DNA of 37,179 nt, taken from assembly GCA_017631315.1 (NCBI GenBank), contig JAGBTN010000002.1, forward strand, positions 1 to 37,179, written 5' to 3'. Positions 6,158-36,840 of the stretch are shown here, one piece after another. A model generated the notes under the pieces. That model worked only from the letters and a program-made list of their open reading frames with translations, was not told the origin of the DNA and made no database searches. Both the position numbers and the translations under genes were made by a program. Position 1 is the stretch's first letter; the number at the start of each line of letters is the position of its first letter. The stretch is from Bacteroidaceae bacterium. Its GTDB lineage: Bacteria > Bacteroidota > Bacteroidia > Bacteroidales > Bacteroidaceae.

Positions 6158-6245
6158 GGTTAACCTTTCTGACAATAATGCTTAACCTTTCCGCCCGTAA
6201 TGGTTAACCTTTCTGCCCATAATGGTTAACCTGTTTTTTCTTAGA
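6158..6245. repeat. 22-bp-period intergenic array A (four units)
   Basis: Units start at 6158, 6180, 6202 and 6224, exactly 22 bp apart. Their cores are GGTTAACC, GCTTAACC, GGTTAACC and GGTTAACC, and the spacers run TTTCTGACAATAAT, TTTCCGCCCGTAAT and TTTCTGCCCATAAT. The last core is followed by TGTTTTTTC. The palindromic cores of units 3 and 4 can pair as an 8-bp stem with a 14-nt loop before this T-run, like a terminator for the gene ending at 6153. The spacing is strict while the spacers vary. Confidence 0.9.
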
Positions 6246-6258
6246 GGACAGACAAGAT

Positions 6259-6301
6259 AAACGCCGCCTGCTGTAGATGCGATTGTCAGCAAGCGGCGTT
6301 T
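6259..6301. terminator. Hairpin terminator between DUF4294 gene and cysS
   Basis: AAACGCCGC (6259-6267) pairs with GCGGCGTTT (6293-6301), and CTGCTG/CAGC can extend the stem inward. It lies 8 bp after the cysS stop codon on the minus strand and would serve cysS; T-rich sequence on the plus strand makes it possibly bidirectional. Confidence 0.7.
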
Positions 6302-6308
6302 GTGTTTC

Positions 6309-7808
6309 TTACTTGTTCAGCGTCCAGGAGAAACCGTCTTTGGTGTCCTTGACTTCGAAACCCAGTGCGGCAAGTTCGTCGCGTATCTTGTCGCTCAAAG
6401 CCCAGTTCTTCTCTGCCTTGGCTGCCTGGCGTTGCTCCAGAAGCATGTTGACAACTGCTCCGAAGGCTTCTTCGCGAGCCTTGTTGCTGACACCGGTGTC
6501 CTGGCGAAGGCCGAGTATCTCGGTGGTGAATGTCTCCATGAGTTGGAGCAGTGCCTGTGCCACTTCGGCGGTGATGCTTGCCTTCTTGTCGATGAGGCTG
6601 TTGATGGTGCGGCAGGCATCGAACAGGTGGCTGATGACGATGGGCGAGTTCAGGTCGTCGTTCATCGCATCGTAGAGTTTCGTGCGCAGTTCGTCCACGT
6701 ACTTCATCTCCACGGGCTGCTGCCCCTTCACCTTCTGTCCTTCCTGCAGACGGCGCAGGTTCTTCAGTCCGTCCATCAGGCGTGCCAGTCCCTTCTCTGC
6801 AGCCTGAAGCGCCTCGTTGCCGAAGTCGACAGTGCTGCGGTAGTGGGCTTGCAGAATGAAGAAACGGATGGTCATGGGCGTATAGGCCTGGCTGAGCAGC
6901 GGATGGCTGCCGTCGAAGAACTGCGGCAGCGTGATGAAGTTGTTGTACGACTTGCCCATCTTCTTGCCGTCGATGGTAATCATGTTGTTGTGCATCCAGT
7001 AGCGCACCATCTGGCAGCCCTGGCTTGCCACGGATTGGGCAATCTCACATTCGTGGTGTGGGAAGATGAGGTCCATGCCGCCGCCGTGGATGTCGAACTG
7101 CTCGCCGAGGTACTTCTTGCCCATGGCAGTACACTCGCAGTGCCATCCAGGGAAACCTTCGCTCCAGGGGCTTGGCCAGCGCATGATATGCTCGGGCTGC
7201 GCCGCCTTCCACAGAGCAAAGTCCGCCTGGTTGCGCTTCTCGCCAACACCGGCAAGTTCACGGCTCGCATCCTTCACATTCTCGAGGTCACGGCCCGAGA
7301 GGATGCCCCATCGGTGGTCCTTGTTGTACTTCTCTATGTCGAAATAAATGCTGCCATTGCTCTCGTAGGCATAGCCGTTGTCGAGAATCTTCTGCACCAA
7401 AGTCTGCTGCTCGATGATGTGTCCTGTGGCATGAGGCTCAATGCTCGGTGGCAGACAGCCCAGTGCGTCCATCGCCTCGTGGAAACGGTTCGTGTAGTAT
7501 TGGGCAACTTCCATCGGTTCGAGTTGCTCCAGCCGAGCTTTCTTCGCAATCTTGTCCTCACCCTCGTCGGCATCATGTTCCAGATGGCCCACGTCCGTGA
7601 TGTTGCGAACATAGCGAACCTTATAGTCCAGATGTTGCAGATAGCGGAAAAGGAGGTCGAAGGTGATGGCAGGGCGTGCATGGCCCAGGTGGGCATCACC
7701 ATAGACAGTAGGGCCGCAGACATACATGCCGACACGACCCGGAGTGAGCGGCTTGAAGAGTTCCTTCTGCCTGCTCAGTGTATTATAAATAAGAAGTGGT
7801 TGTTCCAT
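6309..7808 (-). CDS. cysS: Cysteinyl-tRNA synthetase
   Basis: This 499-residue cytoplasmic class I aminoacyl-tRNA synthetase charges tRNA-Cys using ATP. The HIGH-type motif is HLGH (residues 40-43), just after zinc ligand C31 in [16 protein letters not shown]. Other zinc ligands are in WHCEC (222-226) and HHECE (251-255), and the KMSKS-type loop is KMGKS (283-287). Length is usual for the family. I chose the ATG at 7808 over the TTG at 7823 because [10 protein letters not shown] is the normal family start. It follows the dnaE-trxA-small protein genes in the same direction after a 177-bp gap filled by a GC-rich repeat, so it may have its own promoter, which I could not identify. Confidence 0.96.
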
Positions 7809-7854
7809 ATTGTTAATGTTCAAAAAATGCTATAACGCCACAGCGTCCTCCTAG

Positions 7855-7990
7855 GTTAAGGTTAGCAGCCCCCTCCCGACCTCCCACAGGGGGAGGAGTT
7901 AAGGTTAGCGTTAAGGTTAGCAGCCCCCTCCCGACCTCCCCAGAGGGGGAAGGAGTTAAGGTTAGCGTTAGGGTTAGCGTTAAGGTTAAG
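7855..7990. repeat. GC-rich hairpin repeat with GTTAAG/GTTAGC hexamers
   Basis: Two copies of an approximately 55-bp unit start at 7855 and 7910. Each consists of GTTAAG and GTTAGC hexamers, then AGCCCCCTCCCGACCTCCC, then a G-rich arm (CAGAGGGGGAAGGAG in copy 2), then hexamers again. In copy 2 CCCCCTC (7924-7930) pairs with GAGGGGG (7943-7949). The tail 7967-7990 is hexamers only, including GTTAGG. This resembles REP-like or palindromic dispersed elements that I recall as common in Bacteroidetes. The right end supplies the stop codon of the small acidic protein gene. Confidence 0.85.
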
Positions 7991-8306
7991 CCAAACTTTC
8001 TCCATACTCCAGTTCACCATCGACAACCCAGCGGAGGTCTTCTGGTGAGAAGTCGCCTATCTTGTCCTTCTTGGCTTGGCGTGCAACATACTCTGCCACC
8101 TCCTCTACGTCGATGTCGATGTCCTCTTCGCCCGAATGTTTCTCGAGCAAATCGACATAGTACTCACCGATGATATCGATGAAATAGTAGAGTTCTTCTT
8201 CTGTAAACTTATCTTTAAGGTCCTGCGGCAGGTAACTCTGTATGTATTCGACCGTAAGGCGATCGTCCTCAGCATCGAGGATGAGGTCTTCTTCAAATGT
8301 AGCCAT
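7986..8306 (-). CDS. Small acidic protein of unknown function
   Basis: The 106-residue protein from the ATG at 8306 is strongly acidic (runs such as GEEDIDIDVEEVAEYV) and predicted mostly helical, with no signal peptide or membrane segment, so it should be cytoplasmic. I do not recognise a family. It lies 22 bp downstream of trxA and in the same direction, with dnaE before that, so it is probably in their transcription unit. Its stop codon TAA (7986-7988) is made by the edge of the GTTAAG repeat, so repeat insertion may have trimmed or altered the C-terminus (ending GELEYGESLA). Confidence 0.75.
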   Translation of the reverse strand: MATFEEDLILDAEDDRLTVEYIQSYLPQDLKDKFTEEELYYFIDIIGEYYVDLLEKHSGEEDIDIDVEEVAEYVARQAKKDKIGDFSPEDLRWVVDGELEYGESLA

Positions 8307-8328
8307 ATATTAATAAGGTATTAGCAGT

Positions 8329-8643: not shown

Positions 8644-8701
8644 AATATTATAATGTCTTTAATCGTTAAATAAAATCTATATTATATATATGTGTGTAAT
8701 C

Positions 8702-12412: not shown

Positions 12413-12441
12413 AGTTGTTTTCGCAAGTTGGGATGAGAAGG

Positions 12442-12473
12442 CGAAGTTAATGCTTTTTTTTATAATGAGCAAA
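12442..12473 (-). promoter_or_regulatory. Putative dnaE promoter
   Basis: On the minus strand TTTG (12470-12473) lies 20 bp before TAACTTCG (12442-12449), one base off the TAnnTTTG consensus, about 30 bp before the dnaE ATG. Confidence 0.5.
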
Positions 12474-13281: not shown

Positions 13282-13975
13282 GCGTCACATACCTAATTCC
13301 ATTACCTGCTGCAATCTTATTTGTGGTTGCATGGCGGTGGGCTGTGCTTTCTATGGGCAGTATCATTATGCTGTAGCAATGATTGTGCTGGGAGCCGTGT
13401 TCGATTTCTTCGATGGCATGGTGGCAAGAGCACTTGGTGTCTCTTCTCCTATCGGTAAGGAGCTCGATTCTCTGGCCGATGTGGTCACCTTCGGTGTAGC
13501 GCCAAGTGCCATTCTTTTCCATCTCTTCCACGAGGTGCACTATCCTGAGCTGCCGGTTCCGGTTAAAGATATTTTGCCTTTTACGGCATTTTTGATGGCG
13601 GCGTTTTCTGCTTTGAGGCTGGCAAAGTTCAATCTCGACGAGCGTCAGCACTTCGGTTTCATCGGCTTGCCTACGCCTGCCAATGCCCTGTTCTGGAGCA
13701 GCCTTGTGCTGGGCGAGCATGCTTTCCTTGTGTCGCAGAAGTTCAACGCAGTGTTCCTGTTCCTTTTCATGCTGCTGTTCTGCTTCCTGCTGGTTTGCGA
13801 GGTGCCTATGCTGGCGTTGAAGTTCAAGAATTTTGGCTGGGCGGACAACAAGCAGAGGTATGTCTTCCTTGTCGGCTGCCTGCCCCTGTTGCTGCTCGGA
13901 GCCTCGTCTCTTGCCGCCATCATCGTGTGGTATGTGGCGGTGTCTATCTTCTTTCCGAGAATCGTGAAAGGCTGA
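13274..13975 (+). CDS. pssA: CDP-diacylglycerol-serine O-phosphatidyltransferase
   Basis: This 233-residue integral membrane enzyme joins CDP-diacylglycerol and serine to form phosphatidylserine, the substrate of Psd encoded immediately upstream. The CDP-alcohol phosphatidyltransferase signature is complete: D47-G48, A51-R52, G61, D65 and D69 in the stretch [12 protein letters not shown] through LDSLADVV. Six or more hydrophobic segments follow. The ATG at 13274 lies inside the last codons of psd (8-bp overlap), indicating translational coupling. A 22-bp-period repeat array begins 34 bp after the stop, and the next gene (fbp) converges. Confidence 0.95.
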
Positions 13976-14009: not shown

Positions 14010-14119
14010 GGTTAACCTTTCCGTCGAGAATGGTTAACCTTTTTTGCTATAATGCTTAACCTTTATTGCCAAAACCCTTAACCATTATTTTGAGAACCCT
14101 TAAGCGTTTGCGGCAAGGT
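14010..14119. repeat. 22-bp-period intergenic array B (five units)
   Basis: Units start at 14010, 14032, 14054, 14076 and 14098, exactly 22 bp apart. Cores are GGTTAACC, GGTTAACC, GCTTAACC, CCTTAACC and CCTTAAGC; spacers are unlike one another except for a T-rich start and an AAT or AAC end. Units 1 and 2 can pair core to core and the second is followed by TTTTTTGC, which looks like a terminator for pssA. The array fills the convergent gap between pssA and fbp. Confidence 0.9.
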
Positions 14120-14163: not shown

Positions 14164-16140
14164 CTATCGCTTGGCTTTTTCTTTGATGAGGCCGTGGCGG
14201 TAGGCGTGGAGCAGTTGGTGGAGGTCGCCGATGTGCTGCTGCAGGTGCATGCCCTTGTCGGTGTCGCGCACTCGGATGCGGCGTCCCATCATCTCCACGA
14301 TTTGTTTGCTGCTCTTGATGTCGGTGCCTTTGGCCACAGCCTCCTGCGTGCTGTTGAACGGCTCGTGCTGGATGAGTTCGAAGCCACGGCTGTGATAGAC
14401 CAATGTGTAGCCTGCAATGCCCGTCGTGTGGTGGTAGGCTTTGGCAAAACCACCGTCGATGACCATCAGCATGCCGTCTGCCTTGATGGGATTCTCGCCC
14501 TGGCCGGCATGGACAGGAACGTGGCCGTTGATGATGTGGCGCGTCTCGCCCTCCACACCGAAGTGGTCCAGTAGGTCGGCACACACTTGGGGATTCTCAC
14601 GAAGTTGATAGTATGCGCCTTTCTCCTCGTGGTGCGTTATGGAATCGGCAAGGAAATACCGCTCGAAAGTCGTCATGCGGCTCTTGTCGAAGAGTGGGCT
14701 GTCTGGGCCACACCACAGGTACCAGAAGAAATCCCGTGCTGTACTCTTCACACTCTCGCCATAGGGAGACGGGAATGCCGTGCGCATCTTCAACTCGATT
14801 TGCTGCATCAGTTCGCAGCCGCAGTACGTGTTTCCGTCAATCTCCACCTCGCGCAGACTGCCGTCGGCATTGAGGGGAACGGAGGCATGGAACAGCAGAT
14901 TGCTGTTGCAGACCGTGAACATCGAGCCATGGCTCAGCAGGCAACGGATGTGCTTCTGCAGTTTTTCCGAAATAACGAATGAGTGATGCAGCCGCTCCAC
15001 GAGTTCTTCCTCCTCGGGCGACAGACGATATGGGTCGTTCACGTCGAGCGTAGGCAGAAAACTGTCCAGCAGCGGATAGTCCTTTCCCTCGAAGCGGTAA
15101 GTGCCACCCTGCAGGTCGATGTTCTCCAGCGTACCCCTTCGGTCGATGTTCCACTCGGGATGTTGCCTTATGAGTTGCCCCTCCAGTTTGAACTGGATGA
15201 CGGAAATCGCCTTGTGCATCTGGGCAATGAGGCGGATGTGCTTCTCGTCCGTCTCGCCCTCCCCGGTCCTGGTGTGCGGCAGGAACCGCAGACAAGGGTC
15301 GTCGGCATACGTCTCCATGGCAAACGTCGCCAGCGGAAGAAGATTGATGCCATAACCATCCTCCAGCGTAGCCATGTTCGCAAAGCGCAGAGAAAGCCTC
15401 AAGACAATGGCAATGCAAGCATCGCATCCGGCAGCAGCCCCCATCCAAAGCGCATCATGGTTGCCCCATTGCACGTCGAAGTTCTCGCGTGTGAGCAGAT
15501 AATCCATAATGATGTGCGCCCCCGGGCCACGGTCGAAGATGTCGCCCAGAATGTGAAGTTGGTCGATGCTCAACCGCTGAATGACGTTGCAGACCGTCAC
15601 AATAAAGTTCCTTGCCTGCCCTGTCTGTATGATAGTCTCCACGATGCGGCGCACATAGACGTTCTTGTCGTCGTCGTTAGGGCTTTCGTGAAGGAGTTCT
15701 TCTATGATGTATGCAAACTGCTTGGGCAAGGCTTTGCGGACTTTGCTTCGCGTATATTTGCTGCTCACCGAGCGACAAACCTGGATGAGCTGCAGCAAAG
15801 TGCGTGCATAGAAGTCCGAAAGATCCTCGTCGGCACCGTCTTCTATCATCTCGAGGCGTTTCTCGGGATAGTAGATGAGCGTGCAAAGGTTGTGCATCAC
15901 CTCTTCGGAGAGTGTTCCGTCGAAGAGGTCGTGAACCTTGCGCTTGATGTTTCCGCTGGCATTGCGCAGTATGTGCAGGAAGGCTTCGTGTTCGCCGTGG
16001 ATGTCGGCCACGAAGTGTTCTGTCCCTTTCGGCAGGCTGAGAATTGCCTCGAGGTTGATGATTTCTGCGCTCGCCCTCTCGCTGTTTGGGAATTTCTGCG
16101 AGAGAAGTTGCAGCAAACGCATGTTCGTGTCGTTTGTCAT
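14164..16140 (-). CDS. fbp: Fructose-1,6-bisphosphatase class III
   Basis: The 658-residue enzyme hydrolyses fructose 1,6-bisphosphate to fructose 6-phosphate in gluconeogenesis. It is the large class III type (COG3855), built on a calcineurin-like metallophosphatase fold: FVADIHGEHEAF (DxH) near residue 38, LGDIFDRGPGAH (GDxxDRG), VQWGNHDALW (GNHD) and INGHVPVHAG further on. Size is normal for the class. I chose the ATG at 16140 (MTNDTNMRLL), which overlaps the rsmA stop as ATGA; the open frame continues upstream only as a shadow inside rsmA. An ATG at 16122 is an alternative. It is probably translated by coupling to rsmA. Confidence 0.93.
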   Translation of the reverse strand: MTNDTNMRLLQLLSQKFPNSERASAEIINLEAILSLPKGTEHFVADIHGEHEAFLHILRNASGNIKRKVHDLFDGTLSEEVMHNLCTLIYYPEKRLEMIEDGADEDLSDFYARTLLQLIQVCRSVSSKYTRSKVRKALPKQFAYIIEELLHESPNDDDKNVYVRRIVETIIQTGQARNFIVTVCNVIQRLSIDQLHILGDIFDRGPGAHIIMDYLLTRENFDVQWGNHDALWMGAAAGCDACIAIVLRLSLRFANMATLEDGYGINLLPLATFAMETYADDPCLRFLPHTRTGEGETDEKHIRLIAQMHKAISVIQFKLEGQLIRQHPEWNIDRRGTLENIDLQGGTYRFEGKDYPLLDSFLPTLDVNDPYRLSPEEEELVERLHHSFVISEKLQKHIRCLLSHGSMFTVCNSNLLFHASVPLNADGSLREVEIDGNTYCGCELMQQIELKMRTAFPSPYGESVKSTARDFFWYLWCGPDSPLFDKSRMTTFERYFLADSITHHEEKGAYYQLRENPQVCADLLDHFGVEGETRHIINGHVPVHAGQGENPIKADGMLMVIDGGFAKAYHHTTGIAGYTLVYHSRGFELIQHEPFNSTQEAVAKGTDIKSSKQIVEMMGRRIRVRDTDKGMHLQQHIGDLHQLLHAYRHGLIKEKAKR

Positions 16141-16949
16141 GGAGTGGTGTTTTGTATGCGAAGGGTGAGGTTTATGAAGTCTTCCACGCTGAGTTGTTCC
16201 GGTCTCTTCTGCATGATTGGGTCGGCAAGCAGTTCGGTGAAGTCGGGTTTCTCTGTGCTTTCTGCTTCGAGAGCCGATAGGAGTGGCTTGATGTTGTTGC
16301 GCAATGTTTTGCGTCTCTGGTTGAATGTTGTCTTGACAAGCCTTTTGAAGAGTTTTTCGTCGCAGCCGAGGTCGGTGGTTTCGTTGCGTGTCAGCCGCAC
16401 GACGGCACTGCGTACTTTGGGTGGTGGGTTGAAGACGCCGGGTTCTACGGTGAAGAGGTATTCCACGTCGTACCATGCTTGTATGAGTACGCTGAGTATG
16501 CCGTAGGTCTTCGAGCCTGGCCCTGCTGCCATTCTCTCTGCTACTTCTTTTTGTATCATGCCTGTGCAGCAGGGGATAAGCTCCTTGTAGTCGAGCATTT
16601 TAAAGAAGATTTGCGAGGAAATGTTGTAGGGGTAGTTGCCTGTCAGGACGAAGGGTGAGCCCAGGAAGGTGCGTTCGAGGTGCATCTTGAGGAAGTCGTC
16701 TTCGATGATGTTGTCTTCGAGGTCGGGGTATGTTCGTCGCAGGTATTCTACGCTTTCGTAGTCGATTTCCACGACTTTGACTGGTCTTTGTTTTTGGACG
16801 AGGTATTGTGTCATGACGCCCATGCCTGGTCCGACTTCCAGAACGGGTAGTTGGGGGCATGCGTCTACTGTGTCGGCAATGCGGGATGCGATGCTCAAAT
16901 CGGTCAAAAAGTGTTGTCCGAGGAACTTTTTTGGCTTTACTGCTCTCAT
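16137..16949 (-). CDS. rsmA: 16S rRNA (adenine(1518)-N6/adenine(1519)-N6)-dimethyltransferase
   Basis: This 270-residue enzyme (KsgA) dimethylates two adjacent adenines near the 3' end of 16S rRNA during small-subunit assembly. The N-terminal KKFLGQHFL (7-15), SAM-binding LEVGPGMG (37-44) and catalytic NYPY (105-108) are intact. The ATG at 16949 gives the family's usual start, MRAVKPKKFLGQ; a GTG at 16976 lies too close to the predicted promoter. The stop overlaps the fbp start by 4 bp (ATGA). The upstream gap is shared with a divergent membrane-protein gene. Confidence 0.95.
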   Translation of the reverse strand: MRAVKPKKFLGQHFLTDLSIASRIADTVDACPQLPVLEVGPGMGVMTQYLVQKQRPVKVVEIDYESVEYLRRTYPDLEDNIIEDDFLKMHLERTFLGSPFVLTGNYPYNISSQIFFKMLDYKELIPCCTGMIQKEVAERMAAGPGSKTYGILSVLIQAWYDVEYLFTVEPGVFNPPPKVRSAVVRLTRNETTDLGCDEKLFKRLVKTTFNQRRKTLRNNIKPLLSALEAESTEKPDFTELLADPIMQKRPEQLSVEDFINLTLRIQNTTP

Positions 16950-16965
16950 TCTCCCTAATTCTTTG

Positions 16966-16973
16966 TACTTTTG
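16966..16973 (+). promoter_or_regulatory. Putative -7 element for the UPF0104-type gene
   Basis: TACTTTTG matches the -7 consensus on the plus strand. No TTTG lies at the usual -33 distance, so support is partial. It faces a similar minus-strand element 5 bp away. Confidence 0.4.
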
Positions 16974-16978
16974 CACGG

Positions 16979-16986
16979 CAAAGATA
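16979..16986 (-). promoter_or_regulatory. Putative -7 element for rsmA-fbp
   Basis: CAAAGATA on the plus strand reads TATCTTTG on the minus strand, a match to the -7 consensus about 30 bp before the rsmA ATG. The nearest upstream TTTG (17012-17015) is 25 bp away, longer than usual. Confidence 0.45.
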
Positions 16987-17008
16987 TGAAAAAAAGTTCA
17001 TTCGGGAC

Positions 17009-17992
17009 GTGCAAAGGATAAGAAAGTTTATCAAAATTGGTGTGCCTTTGGCTTTGGCGGCAGGCATATTGTGGTGGATGTATCGTGGTATTCGTTGGGA
17101 GGAGCTGACGGATGCTGTTTCGCATAAGATGTCGTGGTCTTGGATGCTTTTGTCTTTGCCTTTTGGCGTTTTGGCGCAGGTGTTGCGTGCTGTGAGGTGG
17201 CGCCAGGTGCTTGTTCCTGCCGGCGAGCGGCCTCGTCTTTCTACTTGTACGCATGCTGTCTTCCTGAGTTATGCCAGCAGCCTGGTTGTGCCTCGTGTGG
17301 GCGAGGTGTTGCGTTGTGGTGTGCTGAAGCGTTATGAGGGGACGAATTTCAGTTGTTGTGTGGGTACGGTTGTTACGGAGAGGATTATCGACACGGTGCT
17401 TGTTTTGTTGCTTTCTTTGCTGACGTTTTTGACGCAGGTGCCTGTCTTTTTGGATTTTTTCCGTCACACGGGTGTTTCTACGGGCAGTCTGTTTGGCCGT
17501 TTCACTGCTACGGGTTGGATTGTGACGGTTGCTTGCGGGCTGCTTGCTGTGCTTTGTGTGTGGCTGGTTTCGAGGCGTTTTCAGTTTTTTTCGAAGACGA
17601 AGTCTTTTGTTTCGGACTTGAAGAGTGGTTTGCTTTCTGTTCGTGAGGTGGAGAGTCCGTTGCTTTTTCTTGTTTATTCGGTAGGTATCTGGGCGAGTTA
17701 TTACTTGCATTTCTACTTGACTTTCTTTTGTTTCGACTTCACGGCGGGCTTGGGTTCGCTGGCTGCTCTGGTGGCTTTTGTGGTGGGCACGTTTGCCGTG
17801 CTGGTTCCTACGCCCAACGGGGCGGGTTCGTGGCACTTTGCTGTGAAGACGGTTCTCGTGCTTTATGGTGTCGGGCAGACCGATGCTGTGCTGTATGTTC
17901 TCATTGTGCATACCATTCAGACTCTGTTGGTTGCGCTGCTCGGCGTGTGGTCTTCCGCCTGCCTGGCGTTGCGCAGGAACAAGGTGTGTTGA
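17009..17992 (+). CDS. UPF0104/YbhN-type integral membrane protein (lysylphosphatidylglycerol synthase TM-like)
   Basis: The 327-residue protein has about eight hydrophobic segments and the family's characteristic pieces: AVRWRQVL early, VVPRVGEVLRCGVLKRYEG, then LVPTPNGAGSWH near the C-terminus. These match the flippase-like transmembrane domain of MprF and AglD (UPF0104). Stand-alone members are of uncertain role, probably in membrane lipid handling; there is no aminoacyl transfer domain here. No in-frame ATG exists near the start, so I propose the GTG at 17009 (VQRIRKFIKIG). An ATG at 16986 is out of frame and would give only an 11-residue peptide overlapping this start. The region is divergent from rsmA. 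The start is uncertain; the family call is fairly firm. Confidence 0.75.
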   Translation: MQRIRKFIKIGVPLALAAGILWWMYRGIRWEELTDAVSHKMSWSWMLLSLPFGVLAQVLRAVRWRQVLVPAGERPRLSTCTHAVFLSYASSLVVPRVGEVLRCGVLKRYEGTNFSCCVGTVVTERIIDTVLVLLLSLLTFLTQVPVFLDFFRHTGVSTGSLFGRFTATGWIVTVACGLLAVLCVWLVSRRFQFFSKTKSFVSDLKSGLLSVREVESPLLFLVYSVGIWASYYLHFYLTFFCFDFTAGLGSLAALVAFVVGTFAVLVPTPNGAGSWHFAVKTVLVLYGVGQTDAVLYVLIVHTIQTLLVALLGVWSSACLALRRNKVC

Positions 17993-18005: not shown

Positions 18006-18093
18006 CATCCACTGCCAAGTCGGCCGGAAAGGCAGTAGATGACGGCCGGAAAGGTTAACCTAATTGACCGGAAAGGCAGTAGATGTTTTCTGG
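18006..18093. repeat. 22-bp-period intergenic array C (four units, minus orientation)
   Basis: Units begin at 18006, 18028, 18050 and 18072. Read on the minus strand, the spacer TTTCCGG follows cores that are GGTTAACC once and CATCTACTGCC-like twice (seen on the plus strand as GGCAGTAGATG). The first unit contains CATCCACTGCC, identical to an 11-mer at 32745. The 22-bp period is exact. The array lies between the UPF0104-type gene and sppA, both rightward, and ends about 70 bp before the sppA promoter. Confidence 0.8.
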
Positions 18094-23062: not shown

Positions 23063-23150
23063 GGTTAACCTTTCCGCGCAGAATGGTTAACCATTATTGC
23101 AATAATCCTTAACCTAATTGGCAATAATGGTTAACCATTTTTTTCATATA
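23063..23150. repeat. 22-bp-period intergenic array D (four units)
   Basis: Units start at 23063, 23085, 23107 and 23129. Cores are GGTTAACC, GGTTAACC, CCTTAACC and GGTTAACC; the first spacer is TTTCCGCGCAGAAT, and the second and third end in CAATAAT. The last core is followed by ATTTTTTTC, so pairing with an earlier core would give a terminator-like structure for thiL. The array occupies the convergent gap between thiL and the C10 protease gene. Confidence 0.9.
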
Positions 23151-23303: not shown

Positions 23304-26300
23304 CTATTTCCTTATAAACTTCCTGCCGTTCTGGATATAGACGCCACGCTTCAGGTTGCTGGTCTCTATCTTGCGGCCCTGCAGGTCGTAGAGCGTTCCC
23401 TTATCGTCCTTGTCCGACTCGATGTTTGCAATGCCATCGGGGTCTACCTCTACGGTAAGAATGCCGTTGACATAGGTGAAAACATAGTTCTGTGCTTCGG
23501 CACCACTGACGACAATCTCGTATTCGCCGGCAGGACTGGACTCATCGGCCAGGCATGTGACGACAGGCATCTGCAGGAATACCTCTTCGGGTAACTCGTG
23601 GTTGCGGAGCGGCGTTCTGGTGTATTCGAACTCCGGATTGGGCTGTCCTTCCATTCGGGTATAGGATTTGGCCGTCACAGTGACGGGAGCAGGTTGCACA
23701 GTCAAGGTGCCCTCGTTCACCTGCAAATCAAGGCTGGTGATGATGTCGATGTTGCCGATGCCGATGGGATAGGTGCCTGTGGCAAGGGTGGCAACATTGT
23801 TGACAGAGACAACAGGGACAACATTGACAGGAGCGCCGGTCACCTCAAACGTAGCCTTTGCATTTGTACGACCATACTCACGCTCGGCATCGCTGGTCTG
23901 TATGACCGGAATGCCGGTAAAAGGCAGGATGGTGTATTTCTTCCAGTAGGTGTCGGCCTTGTAAGCCTCAACCATATTCTCGGGAACGAAGACAATGAGG
24001 GCACGCGAAGGCATGGCAGCTTCACGAATGTCCACTACGGTTGTGGCATTGAGTGCTGCCACATACTTCAGCGCCGAGCAGGACGCAAAAGCATACTTGC
24101 CAGCCTTCGTCACATTCTCCGGCAGAATGATGGACACCATCGTCGTGTTGGAACGAAAGGCCTCGGACGGAATTTCTGTCAGACCCGTGAAGTGGCGCAG
24201 GTCTTCAAGACTGGTAAGAGAGGTGTTACCCTTGAAGACAATGCCGATATCCTGAACAGATGCAACCTCATCGAAACTCAGCTCGCCATCGTCGTCCTCG
24301 TCCCATGTATTGACACAGAACAGTTCTACATATTCGTCGACGAAGGGCACGAGGCGCAATTTCCTACGCATCGAAACAACAGCCCTACGGAGTTCAGTCG
24401 ATGTGCTGGCAGGGTTTTCGTAAACAACCTGTTCGGACGTGGCATCGACCGTGCTGCCCTGAGCCTTCATGATAAGACTATACAGTTCTTCTCCAAGACT
24501 TTGCTTGGCACGGCAGGCCTTGACCTTCGTTACTTCCATGAAGCCCCATTGGCAGTTCTTGGGGTTAGTCTGGTAATCAATATCCCAATAAACACCGTAG
24601 GTCGGGCTGACATTTGAGGCATGCTGAAGGTCAACACCGGCATACTCTCCCTGTACGTAGTCGGCATTGTTTGTGGGTGGCTGGAAAGTATAAACATTGT
24701 CGAGTGAGTCGACAGGGTTGATAGCCCAGTAAGAATGAACATTGATGTCAGTATCTGTGAACGTGGACTTTCCTTCGCCGATGTTGCGGTCAGTGAAGAC
24801 TCTGCCCCATGCTTTTTTAGGACGGTCCGTCAGGTCTTCGGAATAGAAGTAGTAGATTCCAGGCATCGTGTTGCTCGGACGCCGGAGCTGCCACGTCAGA
24901 GGTGACGTGCCGACCACTGCCTGCGTACCCCACGACTCGCCGCGCGTGATGAACTTCTTTGTGCCGAGATTGTAGACGTAGTAGTCCGTGTTGACCTGAG
25001 GCGTAGAGAACTCGGGCAATTCCGGTACGCGGTATTCGCGTATGTTGTTGAATTTGCGCCAAACATCAGCCTCCTCATAAAGCTTCTTACTGCCGAATGG
25101 CACATAGAGGACGCAGTCGCTCAAAGGGTTGTTTTCGCTGTTTCCGAAATTGAAGGCAGCATCGTTTACGCTGATCTCCGAGGGGTCGGCCACGGGAAGA
25201 TAGAGCTCCCTCAGGGCAATACTGTTGAAGAAAGCCCTGCTGCCTATGGATGTAATGTGAGAAGGAAGTGTAATTTTCGTCACCTGAGGTTGCGCAGTGA
25301 AGGCACGGACACCTATCGTCTCGACGTTCTCTGGTAACGTAATCTCCGTGACATTCGAGCAGTTGTTAAAGTCCTCCTTGTTGATAATCACCAAACCGGT
25401 GAAGTGCTTGAGGTCTGCCAGCGAGGTGATTTCCTTATTGCCGGTAAATAATTTCTCCGGGAACTGCTTTACCGCGGCAGCTTCCTCTTTTGATATCTCC
25501 TTGTTGGCATCGCCGTCGAATCGTGCCAGAATAATGTCTCGGAACGCCTCATCCTCGAAGTTGATGAAGCCAAGCTTAGCACGCAAGTGGTAGCAAGCAC
25601 GCTGTAATTCTGAAAGCGAACTGCCGGTGTTGCTATAAATCACCTTCTCGTGCGATGCATTGAAATTCTGTTTCTCGGCAATCGAAATGAGGTTGTCCAG
25701 CTGAGAGGCATACTTAGTGTAGAGAAGGGCGTTCTCTGTAATCTCCACAAGCATCCATTGGCAGTTCAATGGGAACTGGTCATATGGAATGTCAAAGTAA
25801 ACTCCGTAGGTCGGATATGTGGCATTGCTCTCATGTCCGGGCTGTACACCGAGGTACCAGCCATCGTGGTAGTCGGCTGTGCCTTCAGAGCATTGAATGG
25901 TATAGATTTTATCTTGTCCATCCACAAGCTTTATCTGCCAGTTAGCAGGCTGTCCGTTTTCGTTCAGGCGGGTAGTGGCTCCGTCCACGAAGCAAGTCCT
26001 GATGCCCTCGCCCACATTGGGGTCAGTCGTGGAGCGGAAGAAGATTTTATTGTTTTTGTTGGGCGAATCGGCCGAATAGAGATAGTATTCATCCTCTGCC
26101 ATGTTAGTCTTCTTGCGGAACTCGAAGCGCATGGGAGAGTTCGTTTCTGCTACGACACCTTGCGTGCCATATGCCTCGCCGTGCGTCAGGTAACGTCCTG
26201 TACCAACATTATATAAATAATAACGCTTTCCTAGGGCAAGCTGTGCGAATACTCCCTGCGAGAGCGTACGCAGCTCATTAACGTTCGTAAAGTCCTTCCA

Positions 26301-28064
26301 CTGCTCTGCCGAGGTGAAGTATTCACGTTGGCCCTGTGGAAAGTTCAATACGGTCTGGGTTTTGTCCACTCCGGCAAAAACGTCTTCGCCCAGTTGCAGG
26401 TTCTGGGGGCGTTCGGTCTTGACGGTGATGGACTGCAGACCTGTGCAGCCACTGAAAGCACCGTCGCCGATGTAGGTAACACAGATGGGGATGGTTACCG
26501 AAGTAAACGTCTGGCAATCGGCAAAGGTTCGTGTCCCTATACGGGTAATGTTGACGGGCAACTTTAAGTCCTCCAAGCTGTTGCAGCCATTGAAGGCCTC
26601 ATCGCCAATGGCGTTGATTCCGTCAGGGAGAGCAAGTGTCTTCAGAGCACTACATCCGCTGAAGGCCCGTGCGCCGATGCTTTCCAGCTTTTTGGGCAAG
26701 CGGATGGAGGAGAGGCGCACACAGCCGTTGAAGGCATTGTCGGGAATCGAAACGACTGATGTAAAGTAGTACAACTCGTCGAAGGCCGTTAATATCTTTC
26801 CGCGGAAAGCTTCTCCGAGGTCTATGACGGCTGCAGCCTCGCCATAGGTGAACTTGCCGTCGCCGTCGCTGTCCCAGTTTTCCAAGCAGATTTGTTTTGC
26901 CATCTGATTGGAAATCTTTAGTTCAAGTGCCGAGAAGTCGTTAGGCTCGAAGTTGATGATGGCACACTGCGAGGCGGACCATCCATTCATTGTCTTGAGG
27001 GCAAAGTAACCGTCGCTGCCACCGTTCCATCCCCAGTTGATGTGATAAAGACCATCTTTATAGCCATCACAAAGAAAGGAGTGGCCGGCTCCATCTTGTG
27101 TGTGTCCGGCTAACTGGAAGGGGCGTCGTTGTTCTAACTCTCGGTAGAGGATTTCGTCCCAGTTGTTTTCGTCGTTGTAGTAGTGTGCCCAGACGGTACG
27201 CGGGTTGTCGCCATAGCCGAAGAAGTCCTTCAGTGGGCCAGGAACTCTGCTCGTCGAAGCTCCCGAGCCTCCGGGGGAGTAGCCCATGCCTAGTGAAACG
27301 CCACAATAGTGCATCAGTTGTGCGACGGCCAGGCAGCTCTTTTCGCTGGAGCTATTGCTATAGCTGTCCAGCATGTTGTCCCAGTCGATAGGCGATCCGG
27401 CAGGTATGCCTTCAACCGTCATTGTGCCCTTTTGGTCGTTTGTTAGCGTATAGCTTGGTATGTTAGCCTGTACTTCTCTGACGGACTTCTCGCGCTGATA
27501 ATACATGAGCTGTGCCATTGCGGTGGCCACACAGCCTGTGAGGGAACGTCCTTCGCCGAAGTAGATGGGGCACTCGTTGTTGTAGGGCCAGCCTTGTCCC
27601 CACTTCGTTGTCACCATGGGCTCAATGCTGGCGTGGACCTCAACACGCTTTCTGTTGGCTTTCTGTTGCTGGGATTTGGTGGGGTTTTCCATGAGGAAGT
27701 TGATGTATTCAGCTTGTCCGTCGAGCCAGTTCTGCATATGCGGTGGTAGTGAGTCGTAGCAGAATGAGCCTTCTTCGGTATAGCCGATGACTTCTCCGTA
27801 ACTGTCATCGCCTGGAACGATAACAAAGCCTTGGTTCTGGCCTCTGTCGAAGACGTAGTACAGCGCCTGGTTATCCTGGGCAGCCCCCTTGCTTCTTGCT
27901 AGTCGGCGGGAACTTGTGATTGGGGACAAGATGTTGCTTCCAGGCTTGTCCTTCATGTATTGTTCTGCTAATTTTAGTGCCTGTTCGCGGCTGATGGGGT
28001 CGGCATGTGCTGTAAAAACAAGTAGGATGTTTAAAACAAATAATGCGAGTCGATAGTTTTTCAT
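23304..28064 (-). CDS. C10 family (streptopain-like) cysteine protease with LRR_5, EF-hand-like and MBG-type modules
   Basis: This is a 1586-residue exported protein. Residues 1-21 form a signal peptide (cut near AHA). A SpeB-type propeptide follows (DPISREQALKLAEQYM), then the C10 catalytic domain with Cys178 (SLTGCVATAMAQ), His328 (GAGHSFLCDGY) and the Trp-rich HINWGWNGG (341-349). After residue 390 three modules each pair a Ca-loop-like segment (WDSDGDGKFTYGEA, FDGDANKEISKEEA, WDEDDDGELSFDEV) with BspA-type LRR_5 repeats. They alternate with two copies of a module opening YYLYNVGTGRYLT or YYVYNLGTKKFIT. An MBG-like domain (about 1440-1540) and a YDLQGRK...GVYIQNGRK tag close the protein. 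A secreted, surface-held protease is expected; targets are unknown. Confidence 0.9.
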   Translation of the reverse strand: MKNYRLALFVLNILLVFTAHADPISREQALKLAEQYMKDKPGSNILSPITSSRRLARSKGAAQDNQALYYVFDRGQNQGFVIVPGDDSYGEVIGYTEEGSFCYDSLPPHMQNWLDGQAEYINFLMENPTKSQQQKANRKRVEVHASIEPMVTTKWGQGWPYNNECPIYFGEGRSLTGCVATAMAQLMYYQREKSVREVQANIPSYTLTNDQKGTMTVEGIPAGSPIDWDNMLDSYSNSSSEKSCLAVAQLMHYCGVSLGMGYSPGGSGASTSRVPGPLKDFFGYGDNPRTVWAHYYNDENNWDEILYRELEQRRPFQLAGHTQDGAGHSFLCDGYKDGLYHINWGWNGGSDGYFALKTMNGWSASQCAIINFEPNDFSALELKISNQMAKQICLENWDSDGDGKFTYGEAAAVIDLGEAFRGKILTAFDELYYFTSVVSIPDNAFNGCVRLSSIRLPKKLESIGARAFSGCSALKTLALPDGINAIGDEAFNGCNSLEDLKLPVNITRIGTRTFADCQTFTSVTIPICVTYIGDGAFSGCTGLQSITVKTERPQNLQLGEDVFAGVDKTQTVLNFPQGQREYFTSAEQWKDFTNVNELRTLSQGVFAQLALGKRYYLYNVGTGRYLTHGEAYGTQGVVAETNSPMRFEFRKKTNMAEDEYYLYSADSPNKNNKIFFRSTTDPNVGEGIRTCFVDGATTRLNENGQPANWQIKLVDGQDKIYTIQCSEGTADYHDGWYLGVQPGHESNATYPTYGVYFDIPYDQFPLNCQWMLVEITENALLYTKYASQLDNLISIAEKQNFNASHEKVIYSNTGSSLSELQRACYHLRAKLGFINFEDEAFRDIILARFDGDANKEISKEEAAAVKQFPEKLFTGNKEITSLADLKHFTGLVIINKEDFNNCSNVTEITLPENVETIGVRAFTAQPQVTKITLPSHITSIGSRAFFNSIALRELYLPVADPSEISVNDAAFNFGNSENNPLSDCVLYVPFGSKKLYEEADVWRKFNNIREYRVPELPEFSTPQVNTDYYVYNLGTKKFITRGESWGTQAVVGTSPLTWQLRRPSNTMPGIYYFYSEDLTDRPKKAWGRVFTDRNIGEGKSTFTDTDINVHSYWAINPVDSLDNVYTFQPPTNNADYVQGEYAGVDLQHASNVSPTYGVYWDIDYQTNPKNCQWGFMEVTKVKACRAKQSLGEELYSLIMKAQGSTVDATSEQVVYENPASTSTELRRAVVSMRRKLRLVPFVDEYVELFCVNTWDEDDDGELSFDEVASVQDIGIVFKGNTSLTSLEDLRHFTGLTEIPSEAFRSNTTMVSIILPENVTKAGKYAFASCSALKYVAALNATTVVDIREAAMPSRALIVFVPENMVEAYKADTYWKKYTILPFTGIPVIQTSDAEREYGRTNAKATFEVTGAPVNVVPVVSVNNVATLATGTYPIGIGNIDIITSLDLQVNEGTLTVQPAPVTVTAKSYTRMEGQPNPEFEYTRTPLRNHELPEEVFLQMPVVTCLADESSPAGEYEIVVSGAEAQNYVFTYVNGILTVEVDPDGIANIESDKDDKGTLYDLQGRKIETSNLKRGVYIQNGRKFIRK

Positions 28065-30713: not shown

Positions 30714-30764
30714 TTCTTTTTTCGTGAGGTGGTGGTGTACTTTGGGATTAAGGATTAGGGCAGA

Positions 30765-32135: not shown

Positions 32136-32164
32136 GCATTAGTAACATTGAAAAGCATACAGAT

Positions 32165-32599
32165 ATGAAAGTAGAGATAATCAATCGCAGTCATCATCCA
32201 CTGCCGCAGTATGCCACGCCGCAGTCGGCTGGTGTGGACCTTCGTGCCAATATCGAGTCGCCCATAGAGTTGCAGCCCCTGAAGCGCTGCCTTGTCCCCA
32301 CGGGTCTCTTCATGGCTTTGCCTCCGGGCTACGAGGCTCAGGTGCGCCCCCGCAGTGGTCTTGCCATCAAGCACGGCATCACAGTCCTCAACACTCCCGG
32401 CACCATCGATGCCGACTATCGTGGCGAGATCTGCGTCATCCTTGTCAATCTCTCCGACCAGCCTTTCCTCATCGAGGACGGCGAGCGCATCGCCCAGATG
32501 GTCATCGCCCGCCACGAGCAGGCCGAATGGGAGGCTGTGGAGGTTCTTTCCGAGACGGAGAGAGGTGCCGGAGGCTTCGGTCATAGCGGAACAAAGTAA
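32165..32599 (+). CDS. dut: dUTP diphosphatase
   Basis: The 144-residue trimeric dUTPase converts dUTP to dUMP, preventing uracil incorporation and supplying dTMP synthesis. All five conserved motifs are visible: [41 protein letters not shown] and [10 protein letters not shown]. Length is standard. It follows dgt by 29 bp. In my recollection dut next to TPR, DUF4292 and M23 genes is common in Bacteroidales, as here, although a 22-bp repeat array separates dut from the TPR gene. Confidence 0.97.
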
Positions 32600-32678
32600 G
32601 GAACCTACGTCTGTCAACATAGCATCTCCACAATGTCTGCACAGCACGCAAAAAACAACGGCCAAAGGGCGACGGAAA

Positions 32679-32766
32679 CATCTACTGCCTTTCCGGCAAT
32701 AATGCTTAACCTTTCGGGCAATAATGGTGTGCCTTTCCGGGCAACATCCACTGCCATGTTTTTCCG
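32679..32766. repeat. 22-bp-period array E, running into the TPR gene start
   Basis: Units begin at 32679, 32701, 32723 and 32745. The first three end in the spacer TTTC(C)GG(G)CAA; cores are CATCTACTGCC, GCTTAACC, GGTGTGCC and CATCCACTGCC. The fourth unit spans the ATG (32756) of the TPR gene, and the first codons (ATGTTTTTCCG) replace the usual spacer TTTCCGG. The array thus provides the gene start. It uses the alternative CATC-ACTGCC core also found in array C. Confidence 0.85.
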
Positions 32767-34480: not shown

Positions 34481-34488
34481 GGCAAACA

Positions 34489-35343
34489 ATGAAAGCAATA
34501 CAACGCATCACCGTCATGCTTCTCTGCATCGTGCTGATGGCATCCTGCGGCACACGCAAGTCCTCCGTGGCAAAAAGCAATGCCAAGGCCGACAGCAACA
34601 CCACCCTTTTGCAGAACATAGTGCAGACGGTCAATGCCAACAGGCAGAGCGAAACCTTCGTCACAGCCAAAGCCTCCTTCGCTTTCCAAACAGGCAGCAA
34701 GACAACTTCGCTCGGCGGAATGTTGCGCATGAAGCGCAACGACGTCATACAACTATCGCTCGTCACCTTCGGAATCCTCGAGGTGGCACGCATAGAGGTG
34801 ACGCCCGAATACTTCATGATTGTAGATAAAATGGGGAAACAGTATGTCAAGGCAGCCTTCCGCGACATCCCTTTCTTCGAAGGAGCCAATATAGATTTCC
34901 ACACTCTACAGTCCCTTTTCTGGGGAGAACTGTTCCTGCTTGCCGAGTCCGGCACTATGCCTGCGGAAAAACAGTTCGCCAAATCGGCAGACGGCGACAA
35001 GGTGACGTTGGTCAATGCCGATAGTCGTCTGGCAGTTTTGACGTTCATTGTCAACGCCATCGACGGCCTTGTGCGCCAAGTGGCAGTATCTTCTCACAGA
35101 ACAGGTGTGTCGCCCTATATGACATGGGACTATGTGGAGTTCTCTCCGCTGGGGGAGAAAAAGTTTCCCACGAGGCACGACATCTCCATTGCTGCCGGAA
35201 GCCGACCTTTCAAGGCAACGCTTTCGCTCTCCAACCTCAGGAACGATTCGGGTTGGGAAACGCGGACAGACATCTCCGGCCGTTCCTACAAGGAGATAAC
35301 GGCAGACAAACTCATGTCGTACCTTATGAATCTGAACCGATAA
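34489..35343 (+). CDS. DUF4292 domain lipoprotein
   Basis: The 284-residue protein has a lipoprotein signal peptide with the lipobox LMASC, so the mature protein starts at Cys20 with GTRKSS and is anchored in a membrane, probably the outer. The rest looks like DUF4292, a Bacteroidetes family recalled as LolB-like: FVTAKASFAFQTGSK, GGMLRMKRNDVIQLSL, and EVARIEVTPEYFMIVDKMGKQY in two parts (EVARIEVTPEYF, MIVDKMGKQY). A role in envelope lipoprotein or lipid handling is possible, not shown. It lies between the TPR gene (8 bp) and the EnvC-like gene (31 bp). Confidence 0.82.
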   Translation: MKAIQRITVMLLCIVLMASCGTRKSSVAKSNAKADSNTTLLQNIVQTVNANRQSETFVTAKASFAFQTGSKTTSLGGMLRMKRNDVIQLSLVTFGILEVARIEVTPEYFMIVDKMGKQYVKAAFRDIPFFEGANIDFHTLQSLFWGELFLLAESGTMPAEKQFAKSADGDKVTLVNADSRLAVLTFIVNAIDGLVRQVAVSSHRTGVSPYMTWDYVEFSPLGEKKFPTRHDISIAAGSRPFKATLSLSNLRNDSGWETRTDISGRSYKEITADKLMSYLMNLNR

Positions 35344-35374
35344 AACCGTACCTTTTCTCACAAAAGCCTGCACA

Positions 35375-36682
35375 ATGAACAGAATTCTTTTTCTTTGTCT
35401 CAGCCTGATGCTCTTTCTGCCTCTTGCCGCACAGAACAGCAAGAAGGTGAAGGAACTGAAGCAACAGCAGTCTAAGCTCAAGACGGAGTTGCAGAACTCC
35501 AAGACGCAGCTCAGCAAGACGCAGAAGAGGGTGAAGAGCGGGCAGCAGAATGTGGATTATCTGGGTGCGCTGGTGAACAACCGACTGAAGCGCATCCACG
35601 AGCTGGAGGAGGAGCTGAACAAACTGGAGGACGATATTACTCGCATGCAGAAGGACATCACGAGGATTGACAGCGAACTGCGTCTGCGTCGCCAACGCCT
35701 TAAGGCGGCCATTCGCAACGCCAGAGTTCAGCGTGAGAACCACGACCCTTTGGTCTTCATCTTCTCGGCAAAGACGGTCAGCCAGATGTACCGTCGTGCC
35801 CGCTACGCTCGCGAGTATGTCGTCTATCAGCATAATCTCAGCGGACAAGTCTTGCAGAAACAGGCCGAACTGCTCAAGGCGCAGAACCGTCTGCTCGAGG
35901 CAAAAAGCCGGAAGAGCGCCAAGCTCAACGAAATCATGGAGCAGCGCAAGAGCCTGAACGAACAGCAGATGCAGGAAAAAGAGAGGGTGGCAGGACTCAA
36001 GAAGAAAGAGAGCGGACTGAAGGGCAAAGTGGCAGAGCAGCAGAAACAGATTGCTGCGCTCGACAGGAAGATTGAGGAGGTGATTGCCTACGAAATAGAG
36101 CAGGCCAGAAAAAAAGCAGAGGAAGAGGCCCGGAAGAAGAAGGCCGCAGCAAAGAAAACCACAACAACAAAGACCAAACAACCAGCCTCCACCTCGAAAC
36201 CCAAGACAGAAACAAAGCCCGCCACCACGCAAAAGAGCGGCTCATGGCTTACGGCAGCAGACCGACAGCTCAACGGCACCTTCGAACAGAACAAAGGCCG
36301 TCTGCCAGTCCCCATCACCGGACAGTATATGCTGGGCAACCGTTTCGGCATCTACAACGTGCCGGGCATGAAGAATGTCCAGCTCGACAATAAAGGAACA
36401 GACTACGTTGGCCGCCCGGGAGCCCGTGCCCGTGCCATCTTCGACGGCGTCGTCACCAGTGTCTTCCAGTTCTCCGGCACACGCAACGTACTTGTTCGTC
36501 ACGGCAGTTATATCTCCGTCTATTGCAACCTCTCCAGCACCATCGTGCAGAAAGGACAGAAAGTACGTGCCCGCGACATACTCGGCACCGTCGCAAACGA
36601 CGGCAGCGGAAACTGCACGCTCCATTTCCAACTCCGAAAAGAGACCACCAAACTCAATCCCGAAGCCTGGATAGGAAGGTAA
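35375..36682 (+). CDS. EnvC-like murein hydrolase activator (LytM/M23 domain, degenerate)
   Basis: The 435-residue exported protein has a signal peptide (1-20, ending LAAQ), a long coiled coil (about 24-225), a Lys/Ala/Thr-rich linker (about 225-285), and a C-terminal LytM/M23 domain (about 305-435). The M23 zinc motifs are not intact: the HxxxD position reads NKGTD, the HGSYISVYCNLS segment has Asn where His is usual in SHL, and the last motif is TLHFQLRKE instead of HLHFE. This pattern fits EnvC/NlpD-type activators of amidases rather than an active endopeptidase. It acts in the periplasm at the division site by analogy with EnvC. It is the last gene before the rRNA region. Confidence 0.85.
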   Translation: MNRILFLCLSLMLFLPLAAQNSKKVKELKQQQSKLKTELQNSKTQLSKTQKRVKSGQQNVDYLGALVNNRLKRIHELEEELNKLEDDITRMQKDITRIDSELRLRRQRLKAAIRNARVQRENHDPLVFIFSAKTVSQMYRRARYAREYVVYQHNLSGQVLQKQAELLKAQNRLLEAKSRKSAKLNEIMEQRKSLNEQQMQEKERVAGLKKKESGLKGKVAEQQKQIAALDRKIEEVIAYEIEQARKKAEEEARKKKAAAKKTTTTKTKQPASTSKPKTETKPATTQKSGSWLTAADRQLNGTFEQNKGRLPVPITGQYMLGNRFGIYNVPGMKNVQLDNKGTDYVGRPGARARAIFDGVVTSVFQFSGTRNVLVRHGSYISVYCNLSSTIVQKGQKVRARDILGTVANDGSGNCTLHFQLRKETTKLNPEAWIGR

Positions 36683-36752
36683 GCACCCCCATCCCCCAAG
36701 AACATCACACACCACACCTCAAACAAAACAGGTGTACCCCTCCTCCAAACAA

Positions 36753-36840
36753 CCTTAACCATTCTTGCCATAAAGGTTAACCATTCTTGTTGGAAAGGTT
36801 AAGCATTACAGTCGGAAAGGTTAACCTTTTTTCGATGCAT
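36753..36840. repeat. 22-bp-period intergenic array F (four units)
   Basis: Units begin at 36753, 36775, 36797 and 36819, exactly 22 bp apart. Plus-strand cores are CCTTAACC, GGTTAACC, GGTTAAGC and GGTTAACC; GGAAA precedes the third and fourth, so the consensus with TTTCC after the core reads on the minus strand. The last core is followed by TTTTTTCG on the plus strand, terminator-like for the EnvC-like gene. The array lies between that gene and the rRNA promoter. Confidence 0.9.

Follow-up and report, generated by a model that had tools for sequence, protein, structure and literature searches.

Arrays of palindromic sites on a 22-bp lattice at operon ends in a Bacteroidaceae genome and its relatives: a candidate transcription stop or boundary signal

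Results

The stretch of DNA analysed here, called the window throughout, comprises the 37,179 nucleotides at positions 1 to 37,179 of contig JAGBTN010000002.1 from a Bacteroidaceae bacterium (assembly GCA_017631315.1), and it carries intergenic arrays of short palindromic cores, built on GGTTAACC and its variants, that recur in a 22-bp register. An earlier note, made from the letters of the window alone, had described six such arrays, and all six lie in that register at or within a few bases of where it had placed them (18009 and 32682 instead of 18006 and 32679). Four GGTTAACC-type cores at 6158-6231 separate two convergent genes, the DUF4294 gene (5518-6153, plus strand) and the gene at 6309-7823 (minus strand); the left edge of this array is A-rich and its right edge reads TGTTTTTT. 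The array at 14010-14105, with four to five cores (GGTTAACC twice, GCTTAACC, CCTTAACC and CCTTAAGC), also sits between convergent genes, 13379-13975 (plus) and FBPase_2 (14164-16476, minus). Four cores at 23063-23136, again with an A-rich left edge and with ATTTTTTT on the right, close a gene run consisting of S49, LpxK and the genes 21131 and 21973. At 36753-36826, 3' of the M23 peptidase gene (35375-36682, plus), the order is CCTTAACC, GGTTAACC, GGTTAAGC, GGTTAACC and then TTTTTT, and one more core in phase, GGTGTACC, may lie at 36731 as the fifth. The other two arrays are mosaics, in which GGCAGTAG, CTACTGCC and CCACTGCC cores and GGTGTGCC share one lattice with GGTTAACC or GCTTAACC. One of them, at 18009-18082 (CCACTGCC, GGCAGTAG, GGTTAACC, GGCAGTAG), lies 16 bp 3' of an LPG-synthase-like gene (16859-17992, plus) and gives only 24 of 44 matches at lag 22 because its cores are mixed. 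The other, at 32682-32755 (CTACTGCC, GCTTAACC, GGTGTGCC, CCACTGCC), lies between the gene 32165-32599 (plus) and the next plus-strand gene; the listed open reading frame of the latter can begin at 32633, and the start chosen by the codon-usage caller, 32756, leaves the array intergenic. A seventh array, of a CTGCAG-core family, had been missed; it occupies 2979-3042, on the 3' side of the minus-strand gene 3156-4535 at a distance of about 113 bp, and shows 31 of 44 matches at lag 22 and, in Tandem Repeats Finder (TRF), a period of 22 with 2.9 copies. CACGTG, GCACGTTAA and GGTGTGGC cores likewise form 22-bp arrays in this genome.

The register holds well beyond the window. We read 412,144 bp of the same genome, G000 (174,965 bp of C1, 200,000 bp of C3 and the window, about 15% of the genome), and found 32 exact GGTTAACC pairs at 22 bp and none at the other 15 lags between 15 and 30 bp; up to 140 bp, the only further distances are 44, 66 and 88. 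Broadly distributed spacing, which according to the earlier note would refute the phased-site idea, is not what this sequence shows. Genome-wide, GGTTAACC-N16-TTAACC matches 155 times on the forward and 160 times on the reverse strand, against 0 for a reversed control pattern. As a single word the core occurs 93 times in the 412 kb, where seven of eight other 8-mers occur 0-7 times and the eighth, the variant GGTTAAGC, 22 times; with one mismatch allowed, the window holds 19 copies versus 9.9 expected, a number reached by 1 of 100 shuffles. Within the window the single 8-mer, so counted, is only mildly enriched, and the strong signal is the 22-bp register. Chaining half-cores yielded 37 arrays in the 412 kb, 26 with four recognised cores, eight with three, two with five and one with two; the other 82 half-core matches stand singly.

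Between GGTTAACC cores the consensus is WTT-N8-AAW, so that each period has a dyad in the core and a second one, 11 bp away, in the spacer. Variant cores come in the forms GCTTAACC/GGTTAAGC and CCTTAACC/GGTTAAGG. The arrays are bordered by A-rich sequence in the 12 bases before the first core and T-rich sequence in the 12 after the last, with 5.65 A and 5.85 T in tandem gaps and 6.70 and 6.60 in convergent ones, where the other base amounts to 2.1-2.4. The right side of the six arrays called divergent is not T-rich by this measure (2.67). Among these six, C1 47065 runs on into a different in-phase core and then ATGTTTTT, so the measurement may have missed the true edge there. A limited set of sequences makes up the arms of the 14-nt spacers (among 210 arms, ATTATTG 29 times and ATTATGG 16 times). 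These arms are less complementary to each other than arms shuffled among arrays, with z of -3.7 across the spacer and -3.0 across the core, but neighbouring arms show no loss of direct similarity. By eye, the flanks on either side of the core are likewise unlike each other in another species, G163. The idea that the outer flanks of G000 arrays form closing stems found no support (permutation p 0.16 and 0.94).

How the arrays change can be seen in G023, the closest relative to carry the same core (its contig L109, a 97% match, comes from a metagenome-assembled genome (MAG) of roe-deer colon). Of the 37 arrays, 27 align in full, and over all aligned array bases the cores differ at 24 of 824 positions (2.9%) and the spacers at 148 of 1046 (14.1%), compared with 14.6% at third, 3.7% at first and 2.3% at second codon positions and 11.2% in other intergenic sequence. 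Since arrays were detected through TTAACC/GGTTAA, the apparent divergence of end cores is lowered. Within the spacer, positions 10-11 differ at 1%, positions 20-21 at 3-7% and positions 14-16 at 27-31%; positions 10-11 and 20-21 played no part in array selection. The edges of tandem arrays are equally conserved (first five bases, 6/81 on the A side and 7/83 on the T side), and bases deleted in G023 make up 0.1% of arrays versus 0.7% of other intergenic sequence. Gaps inside or within 10 bp affect six aligned arrays, of which two contain a true 1-base indel (C1 40120 in an end core, C3 146366 in a variant core) and another has a 23-base insertion immediately beyond its border. Judged by this divergence, AAWGGTTAACCWTT is under purifying selection: the 14-bp palindrome is kept, and the spacer centre changes freely in sequence and rarely in length. 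The earlier note had argued that the period is selected rather than left over from recent duplication, and the comparison bears this out, with cores and flanking TT/AA hardly changing around fast-changing spacer centres. Recent tandem duplication and assembly artefact were both rejected as origins, because spacers differ within arrays where cores and pitch are kept and because the 27 arrays recur in an independent MAG.

We then asked where arrays sit, with genes called by a simple codon-usage caller. None of 36 placed arrays in G000 lies wholly inside a called gene; 20 are in tandem, 10 in convergent and 6 in divergent gaps. Among 76 arrays of other near species, a set whose placement, edge and lag-scan counts cover certain sequence more than once (G008, and G005 in part), 35 are tandem, 25 convergent and 6 divergent, with 1 inside a gene and 9 at locus edges. 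The tandem ones lie a median of 21 bp after the stop codon and 186 bp before the next start, and 32 of 35 are nearer the 3' end. A scan of gaps that takes no account of the core gives the same picture in these species, with arrays in 22 of 62 convergent, 36 of 259 tandem and 6 of 84 divergent gaps. The 3' preference is weak in G000 alone and strong in the other near species.

Place is often kept across the genus. Counting each species once and leaving out the sister G023, a 22-bp array follows 46 of 79 orthologous 3' ends of the six array-bearing window genes versus 5 of 95 for ten array-free genes, or 44 of 60 versus 5 of 93 in the nearer species alone (a set that lacks 19 and 2 of the rows, nearly all of them DUF4294 in more distant genus members); the Fisher test on these counts ignores shared ancestry, and the pooled controls mostly lie inside gene runs with little intergenic room. 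Two roomier array-free ends, those of genes 7986-8306 and 12724, each score 0 of 11. The gap 3' of gene 7986-8306 contains a separate tandem repeat (7855-7988), with 12-bp copies of GTTAAGGTTAGC inside a 55-bp unit. An exception among array-free genes is gene 4609, with arrays at 2 of 5 orthologous ends. DUF4294 is the weakest array-bearing gene, with an array in 6 of 22 other species of the genus and in 4 of 4 of the nearer ones, its misses falling mostly in more distant species; the gene facing it, 6309, has 5 of 9, the two genes flanking the 14010 array 7 of 12 and 9 of 13, and the end at the 18009 array 10 of 13. The gene run before the 23063 array is instructive, since arrays follow its orthologues at the run end in 9 of 10 species and inside the run in 0 of 11 (S49), 0 of 10 (LpxK) and 1 of 10 (21131). 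The units found at such shared ends differ between species.

What is shared is the lattice, and the core is nearly private. An GGTTAACC element common to Prevotella was a candidate that failed, as TTAACC-N16-TTAACC occurs in mass (more than 190 matches a strand) in only 2 of 139 genomes of the genus, G000 and G023. The next highest counts are 17/17 in G082, which has a GGGTTAACCC-type core, 20/12 in G019, and 11/14 in G089, mostly from another hairpin repeat; a stricter pattern matched 1 of 151 family genomes in a draw that held neither G023 nor G082. The search pattern also picks up, by chance, a different repeat family in G089 and G069, whose numerous TTAACC-hairpin-TTAACC units (for example TTAACCAGCGACCCTGTCGCTATTAACC) lie on few contigs. 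Across 12 genomes, GGTTAACC counts are 155 in G000, 156 in G023 and 0-1 elsewhere; CCGCRYGCGG counts are 309 in G163, 334 in G165 and 0-2 elsewhere; and CCCTATAGGG counts are 113 in G005 and 0-3 elsewhere. The 22-bp architecture, by contrast, is found genus-wide with other palindromes and often at the same operon ends, which the earlier note had not foreseen.

The period itself recurs among near species. TRF lists 57 repeats of period at least 12 in 15 near loci (285 kb, G023 included), 37 of them at 22, 8 at 44 and 1 at 43, whereas 49 loci of other Bacteroidales (877 kb) have none at 22 and 11 at 21, and 16 Firmicutes loci (214 kb) have none at 22. Lag 22 stands out in 64 of 405 intergenic gaps of at least 66 bp in near species, where the other lags shown, outside 43-45, reach at most 7. 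Core-to-core steps measure 22 bp in 32 of 32 cases in G163, 7 of 7 in G005, 5 of 5 in G008 and 9 of 12 in G165. G004 apparently has a 23-bp period with core GACAATACTATTGTC (TRF: L075:8058-8118, L076:3518-3574 and L076:19414-19467, two of which the lag scan recovered), and pitch may vary by lineage. Many consensus units, turned about their main dyad, read CAA..core..TTG around cores such as CGACGCGTCG, CCGCACGCGG and TTAACGTGTTA; the CCCCTATAGGG unit of G005 and L110 are exceptions.

Some further repeats deserve mention. Short 21-bp tandem repeats, some of them palindromic (TGTTACAAAGTTTGTAACATG, TTTCACACTGTGAAA), occur in other Bacteroidales including Alloprevotella (L124, L127, L128, L157). 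L111:305-392 is a 22-bp array of CTGTTTCCACGTGAGAAACAAA, a palindrome that we take to resemble the parS site of ParB. Viral contigs searched for host cores gave 0 matches for GGTTAACC and CCCTATAGGG and 5 for CCGCRYGCGG, one of which is a real array by eye. It lies at L224:4806-4931 (IMGVR_UViG_3300028888_002997) and is a CCGCACGCGG 22-bp array with CGTTTTTT at its end. Immediately before it comes sequence that resembles the 3' half of a tRNA, in which ARAGORN called no tRNA; the array perhaps belongs to the host, at an attachment site or prophage border. Rfam, at gathering score, gave 0 matches in the window and only tRNAs in six 20-kb stretches of G000. Elsewhere in the window, 23304-28064 encodes a large protein with Spi inhibitor, C10 peptidase, BspA-type LRR and MBG domains.

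Discussion

We propose, with a probability of about 0.42, that the arrays are bidirectional operon-end elements which most likely stop or block transcription through recognition of the DNA by a dimer on a phased lattice, perhaps aided by hairpins in the transcript. The observations beneath this proposal are the location of the arrays, their pitch, selection on the core, cores that are nearly private to one or two genomes, and the conservation of position with different cores; the termination activity, the protein, its cooperative binding and its co-evolution with the cores are parts that we infer. Each array presents some four sites with dyad symmetry on a 22-bp lattice that is nearly rigid, at about two helical turns per step. 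A species- or clade-specific dimeric protein would recognise the palindrome of the core (AAWGGTTAACCWTT in this genome), and dimers next to each other on the same DNA face would act jointly as a roadblock at the operon end, where transcript hairpins and U-runs may help RNA polymerase release. Were the specificity of the protein to shift in a lineage, cores throughout the genome would follow, and positions and pitch would stay. Place, symmetry and A/T edges together fit either bidirectional termination or a boundary at operon ends. A sharper version seems to us somewhat less likely than not. In it, bidirectional termination would depend on a fast-evolving, sequence-specific dimer that polymerises or stacks, at a two-turn pitch, on phased palindromes at many operon ends; from one species to the next the cores would switch together with the protein, and place and pitch would stay.

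A number of observations weigh against the proposal. Helically phased spacing and conservation of base identity, as would be expected of an array of DNA-binding sites, are both found, though 3 of 12 steps between CCGC..GCGG cores in G165 (L120) measure 21 bp, which lowers the odds for recognition of the DNA and raises those for RNA alone. TRF likewise reports indels of 1-7% in 11 of the 37 period-22 arrays of near loci, and 1-base indel differences separate 2 of the 27 arrays fully aligned between G000 and its sister. The spacing, which the earlier note had described as never slipping in the window, is accordingly not wholly fixed in the genus, the apparent 23-bp period of G004 included. As to place, lag-22 arrays in G000 occupy 5 of 29 divergent gaps, compared with 7 of 28 convergent and 20 of 100 tandem ones, and one array counted as divergent lies 3' of a tRNA operon, beyond what looks by eye like that operon's own canonical terminator; some arrays may therefore be boundaries rather than terminators. 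The edge runs are weaker in the other near species, where the best 8-nt window next to tandem and convergent arrays holds 4.2-4.6 of the expected base (T after, A before) versus 3.0-3.4 of the other. The T-runs are found beyond the array, in the position they take behind the hairpin of an intrinsic terminator, and not where a polymerase would be expected to stall. No binding protein was identified among the candidates looked at, which were those of the HU/IHF family (PF00216), present in all 11 genomes searched at 3-5 copies each and so uninformative as a lead. The folding of the transcript adds to this side of the balance. The median folding z of the transcribed strand is -3.5 for 53 near-species arrays (L087, L088 and L089 having been left out as redundant) versus -1.0 for 85 array-free 3' ends (25 below -3), the sense strand is the more structured one in 23 of 32 tandem-gap arrays, and the first and last cores are complementary in 5 of 9 readable G163 arrays.

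These last results invite a reading without any protein, in which the arrays are elaborate intrinsic terminators whose cores pair between units, as core, loop, core and U-run, in either direction. We regard it as a serious possibility, if a tentative one. The layout of A-run, array and T-run is what it would predict, 42 of the 53 arrays fold with z at -2 or below, the 21-bp slips of G165 would be harmless to it, and the conserved bases of G000 (core and TT/AA) would be the stem around a fast-changing loop. It leaves unexplained, however, why loop length should be constant in the samples from G000, G163, G005 and G008, and why one core should serve 37 arrays, or 155 matched pairs genome-wide, while species differ. 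A G-U signature of RNA is absent, transcribed-strand G-T versus A-C standing at 200 v 306 in near species and 108 v 126 in G000 (the cells overlap, so these statistics are descriptive only). Spacer arms are anti-complementary, the A-run and T-run edges of tandem arrays are conserved to the same degree, 11 of the 53 arrays have z above -2, and some, such as L121, have no excess structure at all. Cores such as GGTTAACC are not GC-rich, and hairpins followed by T-runs that look by eye like ordinary terminators, and unlike arrays, follow 3 of 7 tRNA ends in the same genome. A DNA-bound dimer is preferred over RNA alone because of those 11 arrays, because G-T is not favoured, because loop length is constant in four of five sampled species, and because a core that unrelated loci of a genome have in common is kept by base identity.

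Two further explanations appear improbable to us. The arrays could be mobile repeats of the repetitive extragenic palindrome (REP) or bacterial interspersed mosaic element (BIME) kind, palindromes spread by a transposase with a preference for 3' ends, whose species-specific families replace one another. REPs are indeed described as high-copy palindromes, in some families species-specific, found 3' of genes in tandem and convergent gaps (PMC3733652), and they share location, palindromy and species specificity with the arrays, apart from the weak 3' preference in G000; isolated pairs of foreign cores do occur in other genomes, and the Y1_Tnp/RAYT family (PF01797) has hits in 4 of 12 genomes (G012, G163, G167 and G168). 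It has none in the other eight (G000, G023, G005, G008, G024, G164, G165 and G166), although G165 shares its core with G163. By eye, the GGTTAACC unit carries no GTAG/CGTC tag in the consensus or the window arrays (no systematic scan was made), and the GGCAGTAG cores of mosaic arrays contain GTAG but not as a tagged hairpin. Nor would mobility easily account for orthologous operon ends that are often occupied despite different cores, for mosaic arrays that keep phase, or for spacers that were not copied along with the core; and the available part of the REP description mentions no fixed lattice comparable to the 22-bp direct lattice of about four sites (PMC3733652). The arrays could also, with a similarly small chance, be boundaries at the DNA level and not mainly terminators, phased dyads that bind a nucleoid, gyrase or insulator-like factor and so separate domains of supercoiling or transcription. 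Edges that are symmetric even in tandem gaps, the two-turn pitch, and the arrays in some divergent gaps of G000 and beyond the apparent tRNA terminator would suit this role, while the terminator-like preference for 3' ends near stop codons in other near species and for the ends of gene runs speaks against it.

In agreement with the earlier note, which knew of no described element of this kind, we found no description of such arrays among the results listed from the literature searched (subscription papers and preprints lay outside its scope). Bidirectional intrinsic (Rho-independent) terminators resemble them in having an A-run, inverted repeats and a T-run at operon ends, readable on both strands; the arrays differ in their several sites at near-invariant pitch and in a core that is shared genome-wide and selected for base identity. 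To terminators that work by protein roadblock, including RNA polymerase I termination, for which a roadblock together with an RNA hairpin has been reported (PMC12366685), the likeness is one of working only, in that proteins bound to DNA 3' of genes arrest the polymerase; the arrays are bacterial, extend over many operons, and their protein is putative. The nearest published tandem repeats that we met in the order are those of Porphyromonas gingivalis, namely BrickBuilt, an intergenic, 19-copy MITE-like element (miniature inverted-repeat transposable element) with predicted stem-loops, 1-23 imperfect 23-nt repeats and, in most copies, a leader or tail, and direct repeats of 22, 23 and 41 nt (PMC4596501). 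The arrays resemble these in being Bacteroidales tandem repeats of 22-23 nt and differ in having about four units and more than 100 matched pairs per genome; a shared leader or tail was not systematically compared. The 188-bp repeat of Prevotella intermedia differs in size (PMC4755523). Clustered regularly interspaced short palindromic repeat (CRISPR) arrays consist of near-identical repeats of about 21-48 bp separated by unique spacers, unlike the arrays, with their repeated core of 8-14 bp and their 14-nt spacers from a small vocabulary.

The arrays stand at many operon ends in a group of uncultured gut bacteria, and they suggest a signal, of a kind not yet described, that stops transcription or marks a boundary. 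They are more widespread than the window shows, with pitch and often place kept and the core differing between species, and their function, as set out above, is deduced from these features. If our proposal is true, many operons in these organisms would be ended by a modular array of sites that keeps its geometry but has a different recognition sequence, genome-wide, from one species to another. This would amount to concerted turnover of cis-acting sites in bacteria, and possibly to a factor-dependent termination unlike either intrinsic or Rho termination. In practical terms, 22-bp lattices could serve as markers of operon ends in genomes of uncultured members of the genus, and the core as a possible marker of the clade.

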